Origin: Lachnospiraceae bacterium
Lineage (GTDB): Bacteria; Bacillota; Clostridia; Lachnospirales; Lachnospiraceae
Length of the DNA stretch: 36,709 bases
Direction of reading: 5' to 3'
Assembly (NCBI GenBank): GCA_910575255.1
Contig: CAJTEM010000042.1
Coordinates: forward strand, 1 to 36,709
Numbering within the stretch: the stretch's first letter is position 1; the number at the start of each line of letters is the position of its first letter. Made by a program: the position numbers and the translations under genes. The notes below the pieces were generated by a model. It was not told the origin of the DNA. It searched no databases and worked only from the letters and a program-made list of their open reading frames with translations. Positions 17,417 to 30,612 of the stretch are shown one piece after another.

Positions 17417-17770
17417 ATGGATATAACTTACGAAAAATGTGGAGATTATTTAATTCCGAATCTAATCCCCGATCCGGAGCCAGAGGGAGAGTTGAGAAAG
17501 TTTGGACTGATGCGAAAATCCTATCTGGAAAATCACAGGAGGGGTATTTATTCGGGACTGCTGTTATCAGGTAAGCTAAAGAAGCATCTACTTATGATAC
17601 AGGAACAGGCAGAGGAAAGATTTGATCTGTTGGTGGAGCAGATGGCGAAGCGTGAAGGAGTGACGGAGCAGTTAAAAGCACAAGATCAGATGCTTTGGGT
17701 TAAGAAAATGAATAGCATTAGGATGAGGGCAGAGGAGATTGTAAGGGAAGAGATAATTTATATATTGTAG
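17417..17770 (+). CDS. TnpV-like transposon protein
   Basis: The 117-residue protein matches the TnpV family named from Tn4451: N-terminal YEKCGDYLIPNL, a central RKFGLMRKSYLENHRRGIYSGLLLSGKL, and an acidic helical end. The function is unknown, but the family marks Clostridial mobile elements. It follows the relaxase by 27 bp and is probably cotranscribed. Confidence 0.75.
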   Translation: MDITYEKCGDYLIPNLIPDPEPEGELRKFGLMRKSYLENHRRGIYSGLLLSGKLKKHLLMIQEQAEERFDLLVEQMAKREGVTEQLKAQDQMLWVKKMNSIRMRAEEIVREEIIYIL

Positions 17771-17777
17771 TAGAGAG

Positions 17778-17804
17778 CAAGGTACAGCGTGTAGTTGTAC
17801 CTTG
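17778..17804 (+). terminator. Hairpin after TnpV, probable terminator
   Basis: CAAGGTACA pairs perfectly with TGTACCTTG around a 9-base loop, 8 bp after the TnpV stop. The following TTGTATT is only weakly T-rich, so termination may be partial. Confidence 0.6.
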
Positions 17805-17849
17805 TTGTATTAAGATAAGAATATTATATAAGATTGCGTTAGGATATGC

Positions 17850-17878
17850 TTGCTATTGTTCCAAGGTTGGAATATACT
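17850..17878 (+). promoter_or_regulatory. Promoter of the hsd-TIR operon with palindromic operator
   Basis: TTGCTA and TATACT are spaced by 17 bp. The spacer contains the perfect palindrome TTCCAAGGTTGGAA (17859-17872), ending directly at the -10 box. A protein bound there would control polymerase. The small HTH protein encoded 36 bp downstream is the obvious candidate. Confidence 0.7.
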
Positions 17879-17914
17879 ATATATTAGTTCAAGTTGTAAA
17901 CATGGAGGACGGGT

Positions 17915-18106
17915 ATGGAATACTTAACAGTAAAAGAAATAGCTGAAAAGTGGGGTATTTCCGGAAGAAGAGTAAATTCATTGTGTAATGAAGGTAGAAT
18001 AGTAGGTGCAGAGAAAAAGGGTCCTATGTGGCTGATACCAAAGGATGCCGAAAAACCTGTTGATTTGAGATATGGCAAAAAGCAAATGACTGAGGAGAAA
18101 AAATAA
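17915..18106 (+). CDS. Small HTH regulator of the restriction operon
   Basis: The 63-residue protein is a single helix-turn-helix domain of the MerR/excisionase type (YLTVKEIAEKWGISGRRVNSLCNEGRI), with WLIPKDAEKPVD closing the wing. ATGGAGGA-type sequence lies 9 bp before the ATG. Its stop codon directly abuts the hsdM start. Such proteins often head Firmicute type I restriction operons and probably time methylase and nuclease expression, here through the palindrome in its promoter (inferred). Confidence 0.75.
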   Translation: MEYLTVKEIAEKWGISGRRVNSLCNEGRIVGAEKKGPMWLIPKDAEKPVDLRYGKKQMTEEKK

Positions 18107-20209
18107 ATGGCGAATATAGCAATAGATGTGATGTGGGATGATAACCCTGTGGATGTTACAGCAGAGGCAAACTTTATATGGAGTATTGCGAACAAATTGC
18201 GAGGGTCTTATATGCCTGATAAATATGGTGACGTTATTATCCCTATGACGATTATAAGGCGTTTTGAATGTGCTTTGCTCGATGATGAAGCGAAAAGAAA
18301 AGATGTCATTGAAACTTTTAGACAGAATCCGAATTATCCTGAAAAAGCGCTGTTCAGGAAGTCGGGATTCCAATTTTATAATACCAGCGATTATACGTTA
18401 CAGGAACTTTGTAATGATGCTGACCATGTAGCAGCAAATTTTAAGGCATATATAGCAGGATTCTCTGCAAATGTGCAGGATATTTTGAAAGAGCTGGAAA
18501 TGGAGCAGCATATCAACAAAATGGACAAGGATGGATGCCTGTATTCGGTAGTCAAAGCATTTTCAGAACTGGATTTAAGCCCCAGAACTTTTGACAGTAT
18601 CAAAATGGGGTACATATTTGAAAACCTGATAGGCAGATTCTATCAGAATGTGGATGCCGGACAGTTTTATACGGGCAGGGATATTATTAAATTGTTGGTA
18701 TCGCTTCTGATTTCGGAGGGATGCAATGATATTTTTGATGAGGGAAAGATTATAACAGTTTGTGATCAGGCATGTGGTACAGGTGGTATGCTTTCAACAG
18801 CATATAGCTATCTCAAGCATTATAATCCCTCTGCGGATGTGCGGTTGTTTGGGCAGGAGATGATGGGGCAATCCTATGCGGTAGGTCTGGCGGAGATGCT
18901 AATTAAAGGACAGAATGCCGAGAACTTTCGTCATGCTGATACCTTAAAAGAGGACTGTTTTGAAGGTACAAAAATGCGATTCTTAATTGAGAATCCGCCT
19001 TTTGGTACACCGTGGTCTGGAAAGGACGCAAAGGCAGGGCAGGAAGATGCTGTAAATGCCGAATATGCGAAAAGATTTCATGGACGATGGGGTGCAGGTC
19101 TTCCAAGCGGTGGTGATTCACAGCTTTTATTTTTGCAGTCAGCGGTTGCAAAGCTGGATGACCAACAGGGAAGGGCAGCTATTATTGAAAATGGTTCTCC
19201 GCTTTTTACAGGAGGTACAGCATCAGGGGAATCACAGGTAAGAAGATGGTTATTGGAGAATGATTTGATTGAGGCTATAATCCAGATGCCTACGGAATTG
19301 TTTTACAATACAGGCATCAGCACTTATGTGTGGATATTGTCAAAAAACAAAAGAAAAGAGAGAATAGGAAAGATTCAGCTTATAGACGCTTCCGGTATCT
19401 GCCATAAACTGCGCAAGCCTTTGGGCAACAAGAAAAATGAATTTAATCCGGAGGACAGAAAGAAGATAACAGAGTTATATGCCGATTTTACAGAAAATGA
19501 GTACAGCAAGATTTATGATAATACGGAGTTTATTTACAAAGAGTATGCAATAATGCAGCCTTTACAGAGGAGCTATTCTATTACAGAGGATAGTATACAG
19601 GCAATGCTGCGGCAGGGTACACTAAAAAATCTGTGGGATGAAATAAAAGTGGCGCAGTTGGAGGAATTGGGAACTGCGATTACAGGGAAAGAACAGAAAG
19701 CGCTTGATAATTTTTATAAGAACAAGCCAGTGTATGATGCAATCCTTGATGCACTGCAATCATCGGTATCCAATCAAAAATGGCTTTCTCCCGATGAATT
19801 TATGCCAGTGGTAACAAAAATTCTTTTGAATGTAGCAGATAATAAGATAATACAGAAGATTGCGGATGGTCTTTCAGTTATGGACAAGGAAGCGGTAATT
19901 CAGAAGGATAAGAAAGGGAACATTCTGTTTGATAAGTCTACGAAAGATACTGAAATCGTAAAGGTGGAAGAAGATATTGATTCTTATATGGAAAGGGAAG
20001 TGCTGCCTCATATGCCAGATGCAGTAGCATTCTGGGAAGAAAATCTTGAAGCGAAGAATCCTGTTATCAGGACAGGTGCGGAGATTCCTTTTACGCGGTA
20101 TTTCTATAAGTATCAGCAGTCGATACCGAGTGAGGAACTGGAAGCCAAATTCAGTGAATTGGAGCGGTTGGTTAGTGAACGTGTGGCTAAGTTGTTTGGG
20201 GGTATATAA
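18107..20209 (+). CDS. hsdM: Type I restriction-modification methyltransferase HsdM
   Basis: This is a 700-residue adenine-N6 methyltransferase subunit. The N-terminal helical domain (about 20-150) is followed by SAM motif I (CDQACGTGGML, 219-229) and catalytic motif IV NPPF (296-299). Other conserved segments are GRAAIIENGSPLF and GEAS-like GGTASGESQVRRWLLE. The C-terminal 200 residues are an extension involved in HsdS contact. It would methylate the site chosen by HsdS and form part of the cleavage complex. It starts immediately after the HTH gene stop, with GAGGAG upstream. Confidence 0.93.
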   Translation: MANIAIDVMWDDNPVDVTAEANFIWSIANKLRGSYMPDKYGDVIIPMTIIRRFECALLDDEAKRKDVIETFRQNPNYPEKALFRKSGFQFYNTSDYTLQELCNDADHVAANFKAYIAGFSANVQDILKELEMEQHINKMDKDGCLYSVVKAFSELDLSPRTFDSIKMGYIFENLIGRFYQNVDAGQFYTGRDIIKLLVSLLISEGCNDIFDEGKIITVCDQACGTGGMLSTAYSYLKHYNPSADVRLFGQEMMGQSYAVGLAEMLIKGQNAENFRHADTLKEDCFEGTKMRFLIENPPFGTPWSGKDAKAGQEDAVNAEYAKRFHGRWGAGLPSGGDSQLLFLQSAVAKLDDQQGRAAIIENGSPLFTGGTASGESQVRRWLLENDLIEAIIQMPTELFYNTGISTYVWILSKNKRKERIGKIQLIDASGICHKLRKPLGNKKNEFNPEDRKKITELYADFTENEYSKIYDNTEFIYKEYAIMQPLQRSYSITEDSIQAMLRQGTLKNLWDEIKVAQLEELGTAITGKEQKALDNFYKNKPVYDAILDALQSSVSNQKWLSPDEFMPVVTKILLNVADNKIIQKIADGLSVMDKEAVIQKDKKGNILFDKSTKDTEIVKVEEDIDSYMEREVLPHMPDAVAFWEENLEAKNPVIRTGAEIPFTRYFYKYQQSIPSEELEAKFSELERLVSERVAKLFGGI

Positions 20210-20210
20210 T

Positions 20211-21407
20211 ATGGCAGAATTAAAGGACAGAGGAACTGAATGGTTAGGGGAGATTCCAGATTCGTGGCGATTATCACGTATAGGAAGTGTATATGAGCTG
20301 AGAAATACAAAAGTTAGTGATAAGGAATATCCCCCTCTTTCAGTAACGAACAAAGGAATTGTTCCTCAACTTCAAACAGCAGCAAAAACTAATGCACATG
20401 ATGATAGAAAGCTGGTAAAGAAAGGTGACTTTGCTATCAATAGTCGTTCCGATAGGAGAGGTTCGTGCGGTATCTCATCATATGAGGGGTCTGTGTCGCT
20501 GATAAATACAATTCTTGCACCATTGGGAGAGATGAATCCACGTTATTATGACTGGCTCTTTCATACAGTACAATTTGGCGATGAATTTTATAAGTGGGGA
20601 CACGGTATAGTAGATGATTTGTGGACAACAAACTGGCAGGACATGAAGAAAATTACGATACCAATGCCCGATTTAAATGAACAAGAAAAAATAGTAGCGT
20701 TTTTAGATACTAAATGTTCTGAGATAGATGCACTCTTTATGGATATTCAATCAGAGATTGACTCATTAGAGGAATATAGAATGTCTATTATAAATGAAGT
20801 GTTGAGGTGCGGAATAAGTGGGAAAAGTAAACACAAGGAAGTGAGATTTAAATATATTGCAACTGTAAAAGCTAATTTAGTACCACCAACATTTTTTTTA
20901 GAATATCCTCAGGTATCACCAGAAAACATAACTAAGAATACAGGAAAATTATTATCATATTCGACTGTAGAGGATTCTGGCATAATCAGTGGCAATCATT
21001 TGTTTTATAAAGGGCAAATTATATATTCTAAAATTCGCCCAAACCTTAATAAAGCAATAATAGCCCCGTTTGATGGATTGTGTAGCGCTGATATGTACCC
21101 AATAGAAGCAAAAATCAATAGTAAATATTTATTATATGCAATGCTATCAAGGCATTTTGTTGAGCAAGTCACGCTTATAATGCAAGACAGAGTAAAAATG
21201 CCTAAGATTAATCAGGATGAACTTGGAAATATAGGGGTTTATATTGCGCCGGATATAGAGCAAAAAGAGATTGTATTATATCTTGACAAAAAATGTGCAG
21301 AAATAGATTCTATAATCGAAACAAAAAAGGAGCAATTAACGGTTCTTAATGAATATAAAAAAGCAATTATTTATGAGTATGTAACAGGGAAGAAAGAGGT
21401 GGTTTGA
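20211..21407 (+). CDS. hsdS: Type I restriction specificity subunit HsdS
   Basis: The 398-residue protein has two target-recognition domains (about 10-165 and 205-370). Each is followed by a conserved helix (NEQEKIVAFLDTKCSEIDALF and EQKEIVLYLDKKCAEIDSIIE) that sets the spacing between the two half-sites. The start WLGEIPDSWRLSRIG is typical. ATG 20211 follows hsdM by 1 bp and has a G-run upstream. Its TGA shares one base with the ATG of the TIR gene. The second target domain is distinctly AT-rich, consistent with domain exchange. Confidence 0.9.
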   Translation: MAELKDRGTEWLGEIPDSWRLSRIGSVYELRNTKVSDKEYPPLSVTNKGIVPQLQTAAKTNAHDDRKLVKKGDFAINSRSDRRGSCGISSYEGSVSLINTILAPLGEMNPRYYDWLFHTVQFGDEFYKWGHGIVDDLWTTNWQDMKKITIPMPDLNEQEKIVAFLDTKCSEIDALFMDIQSEIDSLEEYRMSIINEVLRCGISGKSKHKEVRFKYIATVKANLVPPTFFLEYPQVSPENITKNTGKLLSYSTVEDSGIISGNHLFYKGQIIYSKIRPNLNKAIIAPFDGLCSADMYPIEAKINSKYLLYAMLSRHFVEQVTLIMQDRVKMPKINQDELGNIGVYIAPDIEQKEIVLYLDKKCAEIDSIIETKKEQLTVLNEYKKAIIYEYVTGKKEVV

Positions 21408-22423
21408 TGTCGATAAGAGTTTCAAAAGAGGCTGAGGAAGTCTTAATGGAAATATTGGAGCATGAACACGATGGTAATTACTGGAAAATTCGTTTTGATA
21501 AATTGTCAAATCGTGATGATATTGTATTGAGGGGATGCTTTAAAGAATTACGAGAAAATGGACTTATCAATGCCGAATATGCAGATAATTATCCGTATTT
21601 GATAACTATACTAAAAGATGGTTATTTGTATGAAAAGCATTTGGAAGAAGAGAAGGATGCTGAACTGACTCCGTTTGAAAGAGAACTTAATGAGCTTCTG
21701 AAACGCGCAAAAAATATCAAAGCGCCGATTAATGCTGCACCACCTAATATGAGTAAGGATGAATATAATAAACCCAGCGAGATTTGGATGAATGATGTGC
21801 AGATTTTTTACGATAATTATCTTAAAGAGCATGCGTTGGGAAATAGGATAAGGACATTATTATTCCAAAGAGGATTGGGTGCATATGGGGATTTAGTGGC
21901 AGCGCTTACAAGTGTGAGCAAAGACAGGAAATTTATTGATAAAATAAACGGAGTGCAGGAAGTTTTAGTGCCTAAATATCAGGCAAAAGAAATACCGGAA
22001 TATGATGTGTTTATATCCCATGCAAATGGAGATAAGGAAGAACTGGTAGAAGATTTATATAAATCGTTAAATAAGTTGGGAATACAAATATTTTATGATA
22101 AAGAATCTATTGAGTGGGGAGATAACTGGAAGGATAAGATATTGAATGGTGTAAAAAAAGCCGAGTTTGCTATTATTGTCATATCGGAAAATTTTTTTGG
22201 CAGAGAATGGACAGAAAGAGAACTTAAAGAATTATTATCGAGGCAGAACAGGAATGGACAGAAGCTAATACTTCCCATACTCAAAAGTATAACACTGGAG
22301 CAATTACAGCAGAAATATTCGTCAGTGGCGGACATTCAAGCAATAGATTCTAAAAAGTATTCCACTGATGAAATAGCTTTGATGTTTGCAAAACAACTGA
22401 TAAAAAGATTGAGGACCGAATAA
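21407..22423 (+). CDS. wHTH-TIR protein inside the type I RM operon
   Basis: The 338-residue protein has an N-terminal winged-helix-like region (1-80: KEAEEVLMEILEHEHDG to LRENGLINAEYADNYPYLITILKDG) and a helical linker (about 85-185). A C-terminal TIR domain follows (198-338) with YDVFISHANGDKEELVEDLY, a box-2-like FYDKESIEWGDNW and EFAIIVISENFFGREWTERELKEL. Glu272, in the W-x3-E-L pattern, matches the catalytic Glu of TIR NADases. The gene lies between hsdS (1-bp overlap) and hsdR (24 bp), so it is part of the operon. A role as NAD-depleting effector tied to restriction is inferred; TIR domains can also be adaptors or make signalling nucleotides. Confidence 0.85.
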   Translation: MSIRVSKEAEEVLMEILEHEHDGNYWKIRFDKLSNRDDIVLRGCFKELRENGLINAEYADNYPYLITILKDGYLYEKHLEEEKDAELTPFERELNELLKRAKNIKAPINAAPPNMSKDEYNKPSEIWMNDVQIFYDNYLKEHALGNRIRTLLFQRGLGAYGDLVAALTSVSKDRKFIDKINGVQEVLVPKYQAKEIPEYDVFISHANGDKEELVEDLYKSLNKLGIQIFYDKESIEWGDNWKDKILNGVKKAEFAIIVISENFFGREWTERELKELLSRQNRNGQKLILPILKSITLEQLQQKYSSVADIQAIDSKKYSTDEIALMFAKQLIKRLRTE

Positions 22424-22447
22424 AAGTGTTTGAGGAGGAAGCGGTAA

Positions 22448-25400
22448 ATGCAAAATGATGTGTTATCCGAAAAAGAATACCAGAAATACATATTGGAACG
22501 ACTTTTTGAAAATGGGTATGAGATAAAGCCGTCTGCCAGTTATGACCGTTATTTCGCAATAGACAGGGAGGCGCTTTTTCGGTTTCTGAATACAACACAG
22601 CCTGATGAGATGGATGCACTCAGAAAAGTATATAAGTCAGATTTAGAAAACACGATTATTGGCGTTATCAATGCGGAAGAAACGAAGACAAGAGGAAGCA
22701 GACTGGATGTATTAAAACATGGGATAGAGATTGCAAACTACAAGTTGGAGCTTATGTATACAAAACCGGCAACCACATTCAATCCTGTGCTTAATAAGCT
22801 ATATGAGCAGAATATTTTTTCCGTATCCGAAGAAGTCTGGGCAAGCGACAATGAAAGGATAGACCTTGTAATCTTCTTAAATGGTCTGGCAATCATGACA
22901 TTTGAACTGAAATGCAACGCAGCAGGGCAGTCCTATCAGGATGCAATATATCAGTACCGCGCACAGCGCGACCCAAAGACAAGGCTTTTCAGGTGGAAAG
23001 CAGGGGCGTTGGTGGATTTTGCAATGGACTTGGAACAGGTCTATATGACTACGAAGCTGGACGGAGCATCAACGTTCTTCCTGCCCTTTAACATGGGAAA
23101 GGGAGAGGGAATTGATACAGGAGCAGGGAATCCGATTTATGAAGGTAAGTACAGCGTGTCCTATATGTGGGAAGATATTCTGCAAAAAGACATGCTGATT
23201 GAGATAATTGGAAAATTTATGTTCATTGAGGTCAAGGAAAAGAAAAACCCTTTGACAGATAAAATGAAACGCTCTGAAACGGTTATTTTTCCAAGATATC
23301 ATCAGTTGGATGTCATCAGAAAGACGTTGGCAGAGGTGGCGGCAACGGGTTCCAGCCAAAATTATCTGATACAGCATTCCGCTGGTTCGGGCAAGACCAA
23401 TTCCATTGCATGGCTGGCGCACAGACTGGCATCTCTGCATGATATAGAAAATAAAATCATATTTGATAATATTATTATATGTACAGACAGGGTAGTTGTG
23501 GACAGGCAGCTCCAGCAGGCGGTAATGGGAATTGAACATAAGGCAGGGATGATTCGGGTTATGGATGAAAAGTGCAATTCCAATGACCTTGCGTTTGCGA
23601 TTCAGGGAAATACGAAAATTATCGCCACTACAATACAGAAATTCCCGTACATTGTTGACAGTGTAAGGGGGCTGAAAAATAAAAAGTTTGCAGTTATTAT
23701 AGATGAGGCTCATTCGTCCACTGCAGGTAAGAATATGGCAGCGGTGACAATGACGCTCGGCAATGGAGATAAATTGGTATATGATACGGAGGATATGATT
23801 GTTGACCAGATTTCCAAACAAGGAAAACAGGCGAATGTTTCCATGTTTGCTTTTACAGCAACGCCAAAGCCTACAACAATACAGCTTTTCGGACGGGAGA
23901 ATACAAAGGGACAGAAAGAGGCATTTCATTTTTATACGATGAAACAGGCGATAGAAGAGGGCTTTATTCTGGATGTGTTGGATAATTACTTAAATTATGA
24001 AACTTATTACAAGCTGAATAAGGAAATTGAGGAAGATCCTACCTTGCAGACAAATGAAGCCAAAAGACAGATTGCCCGGTTTATTCAGCTCCATGAAGTA
24101 AATATAGGGCAGAGGGTAGAGATTATTATTGAGCATTTCAGAACCTCGGTCATGCAGGAGTTGGGTGGACGCGCAAAGGCTATGGTTGTAACAGAATCAA
24201 GGGCAGGGGCGGTCAAATACAGACAAGCTTTTGAAGATTATACAAAGAAGAAAGGTTATACGAATATTCGTGCTTTAGTGGCGTTTTCCGGCAAGGTGAC
24301 GCTGGAGGATAAAGAATATACAGAAGTAGGAATGAATGGCATATCAGAGAAAAATCTGCCTGACGAGTTTGACAAGGACGAGTATCAGGTACTCCTGGTT
24401 GCGGATAAATACCAGACAGGATTTGACCAGCCGAAACTGTGTGCCATGTATATCCTGAAAAAGTTGCATGGGGTGACTGCGGTACAGACACTTTCCAGAC
24501 TGAACCGTATCTGCCCACCTTATGAGAAGAAGACATTTGTGCTGGATTTTGTCAACAAATATGAGGATATCGTGGCGGCTTTTTCCAAATATTACACAAA
24601 GACAGTTCTTTCCAATTCGGTTACGCCCCGCGCAATTTATGATATTGAAGCGAAGATAGTCGGATACTTTTTCTTAGACCCTGCCGATGTGGAATCCTTT
24701 AATAAAGTATTGTATGAATCGACACATACTGCGAAGGATAAAAAGCAGATGACATTTTATCTGCAAAAAGCAAAAGGTGTGATAGACGGCTTTGCAGACG
24801 ATAAAAGAGGGCAGATCGCATTAGACATCAGGCATTTTATCAGGTTTTATGAATTTTTGCTACAGGCTTCCTGCTTTGAGGATGTGGAACTGCATAAGAA
24901 ATATAATTTCCTGTCCTATTTGATAGCATATATCAGAATTAATCATGGAGGGGGAGGTTATAATCTTGATGGCATGATTAAAGCATCTGAGTTTCTCCAG
25001 AAAAAAGGAGAGGAACACAAGAAAAGCAATATAACCGCAAGCCCTGTAATGAAGCTGCCCACAGCATATGATATTGTATTGAGTCCTACAAAGGAAGAGC
25101 GCCTTTCACAGATTATCAGAGAGATAAACAGCAGGACGGGCAGACAATATGACAATGATGTTGCAATCAAGGCAGCATTGCAGATTCGGGATATAATGAA
25201 AAAGTCCGAGGAACTAAAAACCAGCGCAAAGAATAATTCGGAACAGGATTTTGAATTTGCATATTTTGATCATGTTGATGATGCGCTGATAGATGGTCTG
25301 GAGCAAAATCAGGACTTCTTTACCCTGCTTTTACAGAACGATGAAATTAAACATGAAGTGCTGGGATTGTTCTTGAGTGATACTTATCATAGTTTGCGGA

Positions 25401-25504
25401 ATGGAGAAGAAGCGAGAGAAGGAATTGTATATCAATATGAGAATACTGAATTGATGATGGTTGCGGAACCCTCTGCGTATTATGGAAATAGAGAGGAAAA
25501 ATAG
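22448..25504 (+). CDS. hsdR: Type I restriction endonuclease subunit HsdR
   Basis: This 1018-residue motor-nuclease subunit cleaves unmethylated DNA after translocation. The PD-(D/E)xK nuclease centre is visible as D139 and E153-L-K155 (RIDLVIFLNGLAIMTFELK). SF2 helicase motifs follow: HSAGSGKT (310-317), IIDEAHSS (DEAH 419-422), FTATPKPT, the motif VI-like YQTGFDQPKL and QTLSRLNR. A C-terminal helical HsdM-contact region completes it. GAGGAGGA upstream supports ATG 22448. All catalytic residues I can check are intact, so the system appears functional. Confidence 0.93.
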   Translation: MQNDVLSEKEYQKYILERLFENGYEIKPSASYDRYFAIDREALFRFLNTTQPDEMDALRKVYKSDLENTIIGVINAEETKTRGSRLDVLKHGIEIANYKLELMYTKPATTFNPVLNKLYEQNIFSVSEEVWASDNERIDLVIFLNGLAIMTFELKCNAAGQSYQDAIYQYRAQRDPKTRLFRWKAGALVDFAMDLEQVYMTTKLDGASTFFLPFNMGKGEGIDTGAGNPIYEGKYSVSYMWEDILQKDMLIEIIGKFMFIEVKEKKNPLTDKMKRSETVIFPRYHQLDVIRKTLAEVAATGSSQNYLIQHSAGSGKTNSIAWLAHRLASLHDIENKIIFDNIIICTDRVVVDRQLQQAVMGIEHKAGMIRVMDEKCNSNDLAFAIQGNTKIIATTIQKFPYIVDSVRGLKNKKFAVIIDEAHSSTAGKNMAAVTMTLGNGDKLVYDTEDMIVDQISKQGKQANVSMFAFTATPKPTTIQLFGRENTKGQKEAFHFYTMKQAIEEGFILDVLDNYLNYETYYKLNKEIEEDPTLQTNEAKRQIARFIQLHEVNIGQRVEIIIEHFRTSVMQELGGRAKAMVVTESRAGAVKYRQAFEDYTKKKGYTNIRALVAFSGKVTLEDKEYTEVGMNGISEKNLPDEFDKDEYQVLLVADKYQTGFDQPKLCAMYILKKLHGVTAVQTLSRLNRICPPYEKKTFVLDFVNKYEDIVAAFSKYYTKTVLSNSVTPRAIYDIEAKIVGYFFLDPADVESFNKVLYESTHTAKDKKQMTFYLQKAKGVIDGFADDKRGQIALDIRHFIRFYEFLLQASCFEDVELHKKYNFLSYLIAYIRINHGGGGYNLDGMIKASEFLQKKGEEHKKSNITASPVMKLPTAYDIVLSPTKEERLSQIIREINSRTGRQYDNDVAIKAALQIRDIMKKSEELKTSAKNNSEQDFEFAYFDHVDDALIDGLEQNQDFFTLLLQNDEIKHEVLGLFLSDTYHSLRNGEEAREGIVYQYENTELMMVAEPSAYYGNREEK

Positions 25505-25544
25505 CTATTAAGATATTAGGAAAATGTTATAGGAATAAATTATG

Positions 25545-25571
25545 AATTCGCTACACACTGTGTAACGAATT
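25545..25571. repeat. 27-bp near-perfect palindrome
   Basis: AATTCG at 25545 faces CGAATT ending at 25571. Twelve of thirteen base pairs match around a single central base. It lies 40 bp after hsdR, has no T-tract and resembles an operator more than a terminator. Confidence 0.6.
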
Positions 25572-25666
25572 GGAAGGAGCGTAGGAATGCCCAAAATACA
25601 GCTTAGGTGACAGTTAATGATATTGTGATTTATGATTATTGGGATATATATTAGGAGAGGGGATTG

Positions 25667-25841
25667 TTGAACAAGAGTAAAAAGGGTTATCTAAAGCAAA
25701 ATAGGGAGCATATAGTGGATGAAACAATATTTGAAATCAAAGATGTGAAAGATTATTCGGTTCTTTATAGAAGATGTGGGTATTCTTGTGGCGAGAGATA
25801 GTGATTTTAGTGATGTGAATGTTGAAAAACCAGAGTTCTGA
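25667..25841 (+). pseudogene. Broken short reading frame upstream of the helicase
   Basis: After AGGAGAGGGG, a TTG frame encodes 44 residues (beginning LNKSKKGYLKQNREH) and stops at 25801. From about 25749 a second frame reads IRFFIEDVGILVARDSDF and ends with TGA at 25839-25841, in frame with the helicase ORF. Together they look like the decayed start of a lost gene, or a 5' extension broken by a frameshift and a stop. I do not recognise the product. The rest of the 390-bp gap holds only the palindrome and a seven-codon ORF with a good Shine-Dalgarno site. Confidence 0.35.
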
Positions 25842-25892
25842 CACTTGTGGAGTTCTGAGGGAGATGTTTTGGAGAAAGAGATAGGTGAGTTT

Positions 25893-28736
25893 ATGGATAA
25901 AATTCTGCAAATTGATAAGCAAATTTTAAATATTGACAAGGTTATATGTAGACATATAAGTAATTTGAGCAATTCAACAAGAGGAGAAATCTCTCAGGAT
26001 ATATTGTCGCAGTTAAGACATTTTGTTGAACATATTATGTTGAAAATATATGCCAATGGTGGCGATATTGAAGACACACAAGATAATGTTAAACAGGCTG
26101 TAAAATATGCTAAAAGCGAAGAGCTTTTGAGACACTTATCTCGATTTCATCATTTTTTGCAGGTGGCTGTATCACATCGGACTTTGGAGGAAGAGAACTC
26201 GGAGCGGCTAATGCTGAAATATTACGAATATCTTCTTAGAATTAAAATATTATTACATGATAAATATTCTCTTGATGTTTTAGCTAATTTAGAAGAATTT
26301 CCGATTGCGGCGGATGAGAGTTTGAATGAGTATTATTTTAAAATAGCTCAAAAGGTTAATGGATATAAAATGGCGTCAAGGAACGGTTTTAAATATGATC
26401 GCTTTTACATTCAAAATGTAAAGCCGTTTTTTTACAATAATAAAATATATTATGAAGTGGCATTTATTCCAGCGAATGATAAAGTAAGTAAAACAGATAG
26501 GATAATTGCGTTTACGGAATTAGAGATAACAGATTTTTATGCTGTAAAATTGGCTATAGAAGATGATTATATAGAAATATTTGATAAGTATATGCCTATA
26601 AGAATTATTTTAGATTGGGAGGTAAGCATTCGACCATGTGAATTTAAAAATTTTAGCAAGTTAATAAATAATCAGTCAAAAGCTATTGGAAAAGCGGAGG
26701 AACGTAATCTTGCTAAATATTTGACAGAAACAGGAAGGAGTTTAGCGGAGATAGTTGTTTATTCAGATGAAATATATAATAATGTACGGAATCAGATTGT
26801 GCCGAATACAGAAGCATATCATTTTTTTGATTTGTTAGATTATTGTAGAGAACTAATTAAGAAGCAAAAAGCAGGTTGCAATGTTTTAAGATATTTGCTT
26901 CATCATTTGAATAATCGCGTTATTAAAGAGCAATATCACGAGAGTTATAAGAAGGATTATTATACTGGAAGATGGGAATATTTGGGTGGAAATAATTGGA
27001 TGTCTAATTTATATTTAGCAAATGAATGCCTTCCGTTTGATACAATGCCATTTTGTTCGGGCTTGAAGAAACATGTTCCAAGTTTATCGGATTTATTAAT
27101 AGCATTAGATGCAGCAGGACGTGAACATGAATTTATGGCAAGGGTTATAAAAAATAATACAGAACAAAAGGGAATGCTGTATACTCAGTTGGAACAGGTG
27201 GGAGAAAAGTATAGACTTGATAATTTTGAGGATGTAGAGACATTAAAAAATGTATATAATAAAAAACTACCGAATACTAAGAAACAACAAGCACGTAGAT
27301 TGATTATAGATAGAGGATATATATTTATTGAAGCATATAGAGATGATACCGTATATATAATTAATGCCATTAAAGGTTTGACTCAAAGTGGTGTGGATAA
27401 TTATTCAAATACTGCAACACATTGGATTGAAAATAATGATTATAATATATCAGAAGAAAAGAAAAAAGCACTGGGAACAATGTTTGATAAATCTCATGTG
27501 TCAGTAATATATGGAGCGGCAGGAACAGGAAAAACTACATTCATTAATTATATTTCTAGTTTTTTGAAAGAATATTCAAAATTGTATTTAGCATATACAA
27601 ATCCGGCTGTTAATAATTTGAAGAGGAAGGTTGCGGCAACATCGGATTATGAATTTCTGACTATTTCAAAGTTTAATAATAAATACAATGATGATATAAA
27701 GAGAGAATACGATATTATATTCATGGATGAGTGCAGTACGATTAGTAATAGGGAAATGAAAGAATTTTTGGAACTGGCTAAGTTTAAATTGCTTGTTTTA
27801 GTTGGGGATACTTATCAGATAGAGGCAATAGAATTTGGGAATTGGTTTGATGCAATACGTGGTTTTCTGCCGACAACTGCAATATGTGAGTTAGTAAAAC
27901 CCTATAGAAGTAATAGTAAGCAGTTGCAGGCACTATGGGATAATGTTCGTAAAATGGAGGATGATATTTTAGACCGGCTACAAGCAGGAGGGTATTCGGC
28001 TAATTTAGATCCTTCTATTTTAAGTCCCGCATCAGAAAACGAGATTATTTTGTGTTTAAATTATGGTGGTTTATATGGAATAAACAATATAAATCATTTT
28101 ATGCAAGAAAACAACAATAGGAAAGAAATACGGAGAGGAATACAGAGGTATAAAGTTGGGGATCCAATTTTATTTAACGATTCAGCCGATGCATTTTTTA
28201 CAAAAAGCAAGGATCAAATTCCTATTATTCATAACAATATGAAGGGGAAGATTGTTGATTTTAGGCTTTTGGAAGCTGGTAAAATAACGGAACGAATTCA
28301 ATTTGATATAGAAATTGAAAGACCATTGATGAACTTGGATAACGAAAATATAGATTTTCAAGTTGTAGGTGTATCAGAGAAGGGAAACTCTATAATCAGA
28401 TTTGAGGTTTATAAAAATAAAAGTACAGATGAGGATGATGATAATGTGTCAAAAAATGTGGTGCCATTTCAAATAGCATATGCGGTATCAATTCATAAAG
28501 CACAGGGGTTAGAGTATGATTCTGTTAAGATTATAATAACAGATGATATTGACGAGCTAATAACGCATAGTATTTTTTACACTGCTATAACAAGGGCAAG
28601 GGAAAAACTGAAAATCTATTGGACGCAATCTGTTGAAAAGAAAGTTTTAGATAGAATTGAACCGAAAAATAATCACATGGATATAGCACTATTGAAGCAA
28701 GAAATAATGAAAAAAGTGATACATATATGTGTGTAA
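25893..28736 (+). CDS. SF1 helicase with HEPN-like N-terminus
   Basis: The 947-residue protein has an all-helical N-terminal region (1-130) containing R42-x4-H47, which resembles the HEPN RNase motif. A middle domain of unknown type (about 140-520) follows. The C-terminal part is an SF1 helicase with Walker A GAAGTGKTT (541-549), Walker B FMDEC (610-614), LVGDTYQIE, LVKPYRSN, AYAVSIHKAQGLEYDSVKI and the motif VI YTAITRAREKL (896-906). It is probably a nucleic-acid-dependent ATPase in phage defence, inferred from position behind a restriction locus. ATG 25893 has AGGTGAG upstream; an in-frame TGA blocks extension beyond 25841. The gene is very AT-rich. Confidence 0.75.
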   Translation: MDKILQIDKQILNIDKVICRHISNLSNSTRGEISQDILSQLRHFVEHIMLKIYANGGDIEDTQDNVKQAVKYAKSEELLRHLSRFHHFLQVAVSHRTLEEENSERLMLKYYEYLLRIKILLHDKYSLDVLANLEEFPIAADESLNEYYFKIAQKVNGYKMASRNGFKYDRFYIQNVKPFFYNNKIYYEVAFIPANDKVSKTDRIIAFTELEITDFYAVKLAIEDDYIEIFDKYMPIRIILDWEVSIRPCEFKNFSKLINNQSKAIGKAEERNLAKYLTETGRSLAEIVVYSDEIYNNVRNQIVPNTEAYHFFDLLDYCRELIKKQKAGCNVLRYLLHHLNNRVIKEQYHESYKKDYYTGRWEYLGGNNWMSNLYLANECLPFDTMPFCSGLKKHVPSLSDLLIALDAAGREHEFMARVIKNNTEQKGMLYTQLEQVGEKYRLDNFEDVETLKNVYNKKLPNTKKQQARRLIIDRGYIFIEAYRDDTVYIINAIKGLTQSGVDNYSNTATHWIENNDYNISEEKKKALGTMFDKSHVSVIYGAAGTGKTTFINYISSFLKEYSKLYLAYTNPAVNNLKRKVAATSDYEFLTISKFNNKYNDDIKREYDIIFMDECSTISNREMKEFLELAKFKLLVLVGDTYQIEAIEFGNWFDAIRGFLPTTAICELVKPYRSNSKQLQALWDNVRKMEDDILDRLQAGGYSANLDPSILSPASENEIILCLNYGGLYGINNINHFMQENNNRKEIRRGIQRYKVGDPILFNDSADAFFTKSKDQIPIIHNNMKGKIVDFRLLEAGKITERIQFDIEIERPLMNLDNENIDFQVVGVSEKGNSIIRFEVYKNKSTDEDDDNVSKNVVPFQIAYAVSIHKAQGLEYDSVKIIITDDIDELITHSIFYTAITRAREKLKIYWTQSVEKKVLDRIEPKNNHMDIALLKQEIMKKVIHICV

Positions 28737-29229: not shown

Positions 29230-30612
29230 ATGCCAGAACATCAGACAATAGAATACAAAGAATCGTGGCATGATGAATTTTTAGAGTGGATCTGCGGATA
29301 TGCAAATGCCTATGGCGGAACGCTTTATATTGGCAAGAATGATAATGGAGATGTTGTTGGACTAAGTGATAAAGATAGGAAAAAGCTATTGGAGTCTATT
29401 CCAAATAAGATTACAGATACAATGGGAATTGTAACGGATGTCAATTTGCTATATGAAAATGACTTGCAATACATTGAGATTATTGTGGACAAGTACCCTT
29501 CGCTCATCAGTTATCATGGCAAATATTTTTACCGTTCCGGCAGTACAATGAGAACAATAACAGGAAAAGAACTGGATAAAGCAATTCTGAAATCACAGGG
29601 TAGAACTTGGGACGGTATGCCGATTCCGAAGTTGAAAGTGACAGATTTAAGAAGAGAAGCAATTGATTTACTGAAAGAAAAGGCGATAAGAAGAGGAAGG
29701 CTGACAGAGGAAGAAACAAAGGTTGATGATACAATATTGATGGAAAATCTTTACCTAATTGATGAAGATGGTTATCTGATAAGAGCAGCAATGTTGGCAT
29801 TCTATAAAGATCCAGAGAAATGGGTTACAGGTTCTTATATTAAGATTGGCTGTTTTGGGAAATCAGATGCCGACTTGAAATATCAGGATGAGGTACATGG
29901 CTCCCTGATTGAACAGATTGATAAATCGGTTGACTTGGTTTACACGAAATATTTGAAAGCTTTAATTTATTATGATGGGATTCAGCGGATTGAGCAGTTT
30001 ATGTTTCCGCAGGAGGCATTTCGTGAGATTTTGCTGAATGCGGTGGTTCACAAGGATTATAGCGCCTGTAACCCAATTCAGATCAGCGTATACGAGGATA
30101 AAATATATATTTGGAATGATGGTGAAATGCCGTCCGATCTGGACTCAACAGAGAAACTGTTTGAAAAGCACTCTTCCAAACCGTATAATCCTAAACTGGC
30201 AAATGTTTTCTTTAAGAGTGGTATGATAGAAGCATGGGGTAGAGGGTTTGACAAAATCAAAGAAGCGTGTGAAAAGTACAATGGGCGGTTACCAGAATAC
30301 AATATCAACGCATCAGGGATTATGGTGTTGTGTAAGGCGTGTGATAAGTATTTAGAGTTATTAAATGATAAAGATGATTTGCATCTTGGTCATAGTGAAA
30401 AAGATCATAACCAAAATGGTCATGATGTGGTTATGATGATTTTAGATTTTTGTAAAGAAGCAAGATCTATACCGGAAATCATGGAACAATTTGAATTTGA
30501 TAGCCGGACAAGCTTTAGGAGAAAATATTTAAATAAATTGGTAAAAGATGGCAGATTAAAAATGACGTTACCGGATAAGCCCAAAAGTAAAAATCAAAAA
30601 TACTATTCCTGA
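29230..30612 (+). CDS. AlbA_2 (Schlafen-like) / RecG-type ATP-binding protein
   Basis: The 460-residue protein begins with an AlbA_2 putative nucleic-acid-binding domain (EYKESWHDEFLEWICGYANAYGGTLYIGKNDNG region, about 8-115). A HATPase_c_4-type domain follows (FREILLNAVVHKDYSACNPIQISVYEDKIYIWNDGEMP, about 260-330), with GMIEAWGRGFDKI. It ends in a winged helix and the usual KSKNQKYY tail. Such proteins are annotated as transcriptional regulators or RecG-like but lack helicase motors. Some relatives occur in defence clusters; the function here is unknown. Palindromes inside its 3' part and just after its stop may be its own binding sites (inferred). Confidence 0.8.
   Translation: MPEHQTIEYKESWHDEFLEWICGYANAYGGTLYIGKNDNGDVVGLSDKDRKKLLESIPNKITDTMGIVTDVNLLYENDLQYIEIIVDKYPSLISYHGKYFYRSGSTMRTITGKELDKAILKSQGRTWDGMPIPKLKVTDLRREAIDLLKEKAIRRGRLTEEETKVDDTILMENLYLIDEDGYLIRAAMLAFYKDPEKWVTGSYIKIGCFGKSDADLKYQDEVHGSLIEQIDKSVDLVYTKYLKALIYYDGIQRIEQFMFPQEAFREILLNAVVHKDYSACNPIQISVYEDKIYIWNDGEMPSDLDSTEKLFEKHSSKPYNPKLANVFFKSGMIEAWGRGFDKIKEACEKYNGRLPEYNINASGIMVLCKACDKYLELLNDKDDLHLGHSEKDHNQNGHDVVMMILDFCKEARSIPEIMEQFEFDSRTSFRRKYLNKLVKDGRLKMTLPDKPKSKNQKYYS
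30404..30437. repeat. Palindrome inside the AlbA_2 gene
   Basis: ATCATAACCA and TGGTTATGAT are perfect 10-bp inverted arms around 14 bp that include another GGTCATGATG copy. They encode the spacer before the C-terminal winged helix. The related palindrome after the stop has the same consensus. Confidence 0.6.

Follow-up and report, generated by a model that had tools for sequence, protein, structure and literature searches.

The window, by which we mean the whole stretch of 36,709 nucleotides analysed here from a Lachnospiraceae bacterium, contains an operon in which a gene for a TIR-domain protein lies between hsdS and hsdR (Table 1). By its sequence this is a type I restriction-modification operon, with intact hsdM, hsdS and hsdR genes that run in one direction and carry Pfam domains over the cut-off, and both methylation and restriction activity are predicted for it; the match of its hsdR to the NCBIfam hsdR subfamily (1.2e-55) lies under that family's curated cut-off. 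The gene order HTH-hsdM-hsdS-TIR-hsdR and the tight packing described in the initial annotation proved correct, in coordinates and spacings, where they were checked in the sequence. The ATG of hsdM (18107) abuts the stop codon of the HTH gene (which ends at 18106), a gap of 1 bp separates hsdM from hsdS, the hsdS stop codon TGA (21405-21407) and the ATG of the TIR gene (21407) overlap by one base, and the ATG of hsdR (22448) follows the end of the TIR gene (22423) after 24 bp. The hsdM, hsdS, TIR and hsdR genes are all open frames in the window sequence.

Table 1. Features of the TIR-containing operon and regions of its TIR protein
Feature	Position	Strand	Evidence or remark
Sigma-70-type promoter TTGCTA-17-TATACT, candidate operator	17850..17878	+	Upstream of HTH gene
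Palindrome TTCCAAGGTTGGAA	17859-17872	+	Inside promoter spacer
HTH_17 protein, 63 aa, possible operon regulator	17915..18106	+	Pfam HTH_17 4.1e-07; ATG 17915
hsdM, 700 aa	18107..20209	+	N6_Mtase 1.4e-53, HsdM_N 1.3e-19
hsdS, 398 aa	20211..21407	+	Methylase_S 1.1e-13
TIR protein, 338 aa	21407..22423	+	TIR_2/TIR over Pfam cut-off
TIR protein, unproven HTH-like part	Residues 1-87
TIR protein, helical region	Residues 88-190
TIR protein, TIR	Residues 199-335		W268/E272
hsdR, 1018 aa	22448..25504	+	SWI2_SNF2 4.8e-20, HSDR_N 4.6e-11, T1R_D3-like

On the 5' side of the operon, Pfam matches were obtained for a Mob_Pre relaxase, an actin-like protein and TnpV, and due to their presence the operon is probably carried by a mobilisable element. 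In the related loci L002, L003 and L005 both the relaxase (86-94% identical; partial in L002) and the actin-like protein (91-93% identical) recur, and neither was matched in the stretch of L004. The window additionally encodes, at 25845-28736, a 963-aa SF1 helicase-type protein with a near full-length match to the PADLOC candidate PDC-S53 (1157 bits), which is probably variable cargo, as tblastn gave no match for it in the stretches of L002-L005. A protein combining Schlafen AlbA_2 and RecG-type HATPase_c_4 domains is encoded at 29230-30612, and its copy in L003 is 92% identical.

A scan of positions 17700-25900 for promoters found 33 sites where 26.5 were expected, hence the promoter hexamers alone prove nothing. 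The palindrome inside the promoter spacer has one match in the window against 0.07 expected from shuffles, its arms (TTCCA-N4-TGGAA) are kept in the window and in L002-L005 (5/5) with a centre that varies, and with up to 3 mismatches allowed the genome has a single occurrence of promoter and palindrome together. The HTH regulator is 87-90% identical in L002, L003 and L005, and in a tblastn comparison of 17 loci, a set to which L135 does not belong, it is limited to loci of the window type. It is found in two overlapping frames in L004 (5423-5610) and in L111 (3049-3236), which seem to be the same contig (both 63,591 bases), and in this lineage the regulator may be broken or misassembled. Based upon the tight packing and the conserved palindrome, the promoter is probably repressed by the small HTH protein, and the simplest reading is that this protein would autorepress the operon with the palindrome as its candidate operator.

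In the TIR protein, TIR_2 was detected at residues 201-321 (3.9e-21), with nothing over the Pfam cut-off N-terminal of it. The domain matches BtTir, AbTir, PdTIR and TcpB, bacterial TIRs of solved structure, and a structure search listed TIR folds for residues 195-338. The glutamate of a W-x3-E-L motif to which the initial annotation had drawn attention, Glu272, is in place within REWTERELKELL, and of eight AbTir positions with a reported role in NADase activity five are identical (S204, D231, W268, E272, and R279); in the alignment the other three differ, with R151 replaced by Glu215 and V193 by Ile257, and Y238 aligned with Lys303. Both the TIR fold and the WxxxE glutamate of TIR NADases are thus found in the window protein, which is a predicted TIR NADase, the fold match and the conserved residues being observed and the activity being what we infer from them. 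Loss of the active site, which had been named as evidence that would speak against such a role, was not encountered, as the main NADase residues are intact. The dN/dS values for the TIR gene are 0.09-0.13 between the window and four close relatives and 0.07-0.16 over all ten pairs, and the gene is under purifying selection.

Comparison with known TIR proteins places the likeness in the TIR domain. AbTir, BtTir, PdTIR, and TcpB share its fold but have other N-terminal parts. The Thoeris TIRs are similar in their TIR domain, and ThsB-type profiles match the TIR part only; the TIR-containing reverse transcriptase NF042941 likewise shares the TIR domain, but the window protein has no reverse transcriptase domain. 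Membership in these two systems was rejected, since the scores (33 of 220 bits and 103.7 of 600 bits, respectively) are far under the curated cut-offs. The best PADLOC match of the window TIR (2.2e-43), and of ten relatives scanned, was to the candidate PDC-S66, but in the window protein it is mostly the TIR part that matches (profile positions 139-277 of 282), the matches of the ten relatives start at 110-139, and none of these proteins matched the whole profile. PDC-S66 is described as uncharacterised (PMC12482510) and the PDCs as deriving from guilt-by-embedding (PMC12988326).

Relatives of the TIR protein were collected by a contig search (8 loci) and by protein or A1 searches of 99, 392, 391, 299, and 397 genomes, these samples being overlapping. 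Membership in the clade was set at a score of about at least 350 bits with A1, a threshold chosen after the gap in scores was seen, and after merging the loci of the window type (the window and L002-L005) the clade comprised 10 lineages. The gene lies in the hsdS-TIR-hsdR slot in five of these (window type, L006, L115, L135, and L073), and in two others it is beside type I genes outside the slot, the order being hsdR-hsdM-hsdS, a 163-aa frame with a sub-threshold HEPN match and TIR in L008, and hsdS, hsdR, two further frames and TIR in L007, where no hsdM is present in the stretch. The remaining three (L009, L023, and L074) showed no hsd match within stretches of 15.7-19.9 kb. The control TIR genes (50-240 bits) had no hsd matches in their stretches in any of 17 cases, including the nine whose flanks reach at least 4 kb in each direction. 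With hsd profiles that were built partly from these same loci, the association was significant by Fisher test both for linkage (7/10 vs 0/9, p 0.0024) and for the slot alone (5/10 vs 0/9, p 0.022); in a leave-out check the profiles recovered 7 of 8 divergent Hsd proteins and missed one HsdR. L115 and L111 were first met via HsdR and again via the TIR search. The control count does not include L075 (a 3.8-kb contig), L026 and L089 (no TIR frame by profile) or the weak matches L013-L021 (short flanks only), and L136 (238 bits) and L079 (229 bits), which fall between the clade and the controls, are without hsd matches and have less than 0.4 kb on one side. These results support an association of the TIR clade with type I loci, and the possibility raised in the initial annotation, that a search for this architecture would find the family mostly away from hsd genes, was not borne out.

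The lineages without hsd genes deserve separate mention. L023 (L010/L023) is a full-length relative, 63% identical and with the same N-terminus, which stands alone, and L074 occurs in a genome (G265) that is 95% complete and has no match to the HsdM_N profile, which was positive in 9 of 14 control genomes. Using tblastn, no record among plasmids (141 records) and phages (7 records) covered 80% of the TIR protein, and 26 relatives on viral contigs, which by eye have mostly coiled-coil-like N-termini (in L051 and L052 the TIR is at or near the start), showed no hsd match in the stretch examined; a phage or plasmid origin of the TIR was rejected on these grounds. In L009 (8740-10972), the clade TIR gene is followed by a gene for a second TIR protein of 359 aa, and genes for SIR2_2-domain proteins lie about 5 kb or less from the TIR gene in L073 (13089-16538) and L074 (14012-15640), where their products are possibly a second NAD-acting effector.

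The distribution of the N-terminal regions over these lineages bears upon their possible roles. The winged-helix-like N-terminus proposed in the initial annotation is unproven: residues 1-87 gave no Pfam match over the cut-off (best E 0.052) and no hit to a PDB sequence below E 1, and the AlphaFold models, themselves weak (pLDDT 68-72, pTM about 0.4), show this part with low confidence as helices without wing strands. The short TIRs of L006, L073, L115, and L135 (246-252 aa), which represent four of the five slot lineages, are without the N-terminal part, and the window type and the solo L023 are the only ones of the ten lineages to have residues 1-87. For these reasons (no Pfam or PDB match, weak models without wing strands and absence from the short TIRs) a winged helix serving as the interface to the Hsd complex was set aside. 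In L136, a similar N-terminal stretch ends, by eye, in an ITLSETGKRYF-like wing, and given this stretch the idea may still hold. Residues 88-190, with the pattern W...D/E-V/I-x-x-F...L-K/R-x-H, were recognised, in alignments and by eye, in every lineage of the ten except L009. Because this helical region recurs so broadly and residues 1-87 in only two lineages, it is the better candidate for sensing or assembly. Its sequence and models matched no recognised fold.

To see what else occupies the same position, the window HsdR was searched at E 1e-150 against 299 family genomes, giving 21 places in 19 genomes, of which 19 junctions (including the window) were readable after leaving out G1251 (contig edge) and G1229 (hsdR fragment). 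A TIR gene was present in three of them (window, L111, and L115), another frame in six (L112, L113, L120, L121, L124, and L126), and ten were empty. The other cargo comprised DUF1016/YhcG nucleases (L124 and L126, the latter with a second frame besides) and a DUF4238 protein (L121); the slot frames of L112, L113, and L120 had no Pfam match. RhuM (L118) and AbiJ_NTD4 (L120) were found in the hsdM-hsdS interval instead. In view of this variation among the 19 junctions, the hsdS-hsdR junction is a place where genes are exchanged, the TIR gene being one occupant. The ten empty junctions and the six with varied genes, three of those without a Pfam match, would also suit a neutral hitch-hiker, inserted where inserts are tolerated and with a function unrelated to phage or restriction, but the presence of the same TIR clade in the slot in five lineages, its dN/dS of 0.07-0.16 and the kept catalytic residues render this highly improbable. 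The window's own genome (G000) has seven HsdM_N matches, and between hsdS and hsdR its contig C52 has a 300-aa frame and its contig C24 none.

Several comparisons indicate that the TIR gene has moved between systems. The window and L073 are 67% identical in the TIR domain and 62% over the whole TIR, as against 27% in HsdR, and by sequence the L073 system is of another type I family than that of the window. As both of these systems, with unrelated HsdR, hold the gene in the same slot, their sequences indicate either a transfer from one operon to another, unrelated one or more than one capture. L113 and L112, neither of which has a TIR gene, are grouped in the HsdR tree with the window type (98/100) and with L006 (92/99), respectively, and loss and regain of the TIR cannot be told apart in this tree. 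L112, on contig C17 of the window's own genome (2493-14500), is a second type I system of that genome (HsdR 72%), with an AAA_13-type protein upstream (63% to that of L006), a 102-aa slot frame and McrBC-like genes downstream. L006 (2853-16190) has in a row the AAA_13 protein, hsdM in two frames, hsdS, TIR, hsdR, a McrB-like gene, and McrC; its AAA_13 protein is of the type of ATPase known from PrrC/RloC. When L004 is compared with the other four loci of the window type, dS is 0.39-0.44 for TIR, 0.66-0.78 for hsdM and 0.73-0.80 for hsdR, and because of this lower dS the TIR gene appears as if exchanged apart from its neighbours. The hsdS genes of L002-L005 are only 33-65% identical to that of the window and their TIR genes 91-93%, hence the TIR is not linked to a single DNA target. 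Gains of the slot were not counted from the TIR tree, since the order inside the clade is unresolved there (3 of 14 inner branches are starred, and the L076 row is untrimmed, with its start motif missing).

These observations can be set against the proposal that the TIR protein needs or guards the Hsd complex, as PrrC does. The Hsd complex would then hold the TIR inactive, or the TIR would read Hsd failure, and a phage anti-restriction protein that blocks restriction would bring about its release and abortive infection. Such a guard accords with the presence of the gene in precisely this slot, with tight junctions, in five lineages, of which one has a type I system of an unrelated family, and PrrC in ecoprrI is a described precedent for it (PMC12707154, PMC3710099). 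However, three of ten lineages are without hsd genes in the stretch, one of them in the genome lacking an HsdM_N match, the same clade occurs with an HsdR that is only 27% identical, and the slot accepts unrelated genes. We consider a guard of this kind unlikely, and the dependence on the Hsd complex assumed in the initial annotation is unsupported in the face of the solo relatives (L023 and the G265 member), the unrelated HsdR and the changing HsdS.

Embedded cargo in type I operons is already known (PrrC, DarTG2, and TgvAB). PrrC of the EcoprrI type IC locus resembles the present case as an effector gene within a type I operon which acts as a second line (PMC12707154, PMC3710099), but it is an anticodon nuclease with an ABC ATPase, held by its own RM enzyme, whereas the TIR has solo relatives. 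A PrrC-type ABC ATPase with a HEPN anticodon nuclease is absent from the window protein, in which TIR families alone pass the Pfam cut-off. The RptR-RMS-DarTG2 island of E. coli is alike in position, with toxic cargo placed precisely in the hsdS-hsdR interval, and it too begins with a gene for a small DNA-binding regulator (PMC12255303). Its cargo is the DarTG2 toxin-antitoxin pair, however, and RptR, a first-gene repressor, binds a series of three repeats, whereas the window has one palindrome and an HTH_17 protein, the two being likened by description; a further gene pair in the same place is also reported there, and the junction is termed a potential hotspot. The type I operon of V. cholerae VPI-2 likewise houses independent defence genes, TgvAB, and the same source places RloF between hsdR and hsdS (PMC11411939). 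Also described are HEPN families linked to R-M operons (PMC3710099) and regulators between R-M operons and immune operons (PMC13373217). The view that the present arrangement is uncharacterised thus holds for the TIR gene in the slot, which was not found in the partly accessible literature searched (the preprint defining the PDCs, outside this search, may list it), and fails for the slot and for embedded effectors, which are already published.

Another reading is addiction, in which the TIR would be a toxin restrained by an Hsd protein or by methylation, and a cell that lost the mobile element would die. The relaxase and actin-like genes that adjoin the operon in L002, L003, and L005 as well as in the window would agree with it, as does the toxin-antitoxin pair DarTG2 held by the slot elsewhere, but no separate antitoxin-like gene lies between hsdS and hsdR in the window and solo members of the clade exist, which leaves this reading improbable.

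The explanation to which we give somewhat the better chance is that the TIR gene, encoding a predicted and self-contained TIR NADase, occupies the hsdS-hsdR slot of this type I operon as exchangeable cargo and is co-expressed with restriction. The protein would probably be translated in step with hsdS and hsdR, as the packing suggests, and its own N-terminal helical region may sense infection or assemble TIRs. Upon restriction failure or sensed phage replication it would destroy NAD+ or make cyclic ADP-ribose and so stop the infected cell, working beside restriction as a second line that is independent of any one Hsd complex. Three solo lineages, unrelated Hsd partners and a slot with varied genes are the reasons why a TIR without need of an Hsd partner is favoured, but the strong bias towards the slot would be expected of a true guard as well. 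It is also conceivable, if rather doubtful, that the clade has settled at this junction as a restriction sentinel, which fires when a phage protein blocks HsdR or HsdM. Because the TIR sits with unrelated Hsd complexes, the cue for such a sentinel would be something that every one of them produces, for example complexes that translocate or have stalled, or DNA left unrestricted, rather than the surface of a single protein.

As exchangeable cargo, these proteins add predicted NAD+-targeting TIR enzymes to the cargo known inside type I restriction operons. The occurrence of the same clade in the same slot of unrelated host systems is comparative evidence for the hsdS-hsdR junction as a reusable docking site for back-up effectors, and since related TIR genes share this spot in other, even unrelated, restriction operons, their sequences suggest that the TIR gene is a swappable back-up weapon against viruses. 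If the functional link is true, restriction and NAD depletion would form one layered system, and how cells notice anti-restriction would become addressable in several natural pairs.
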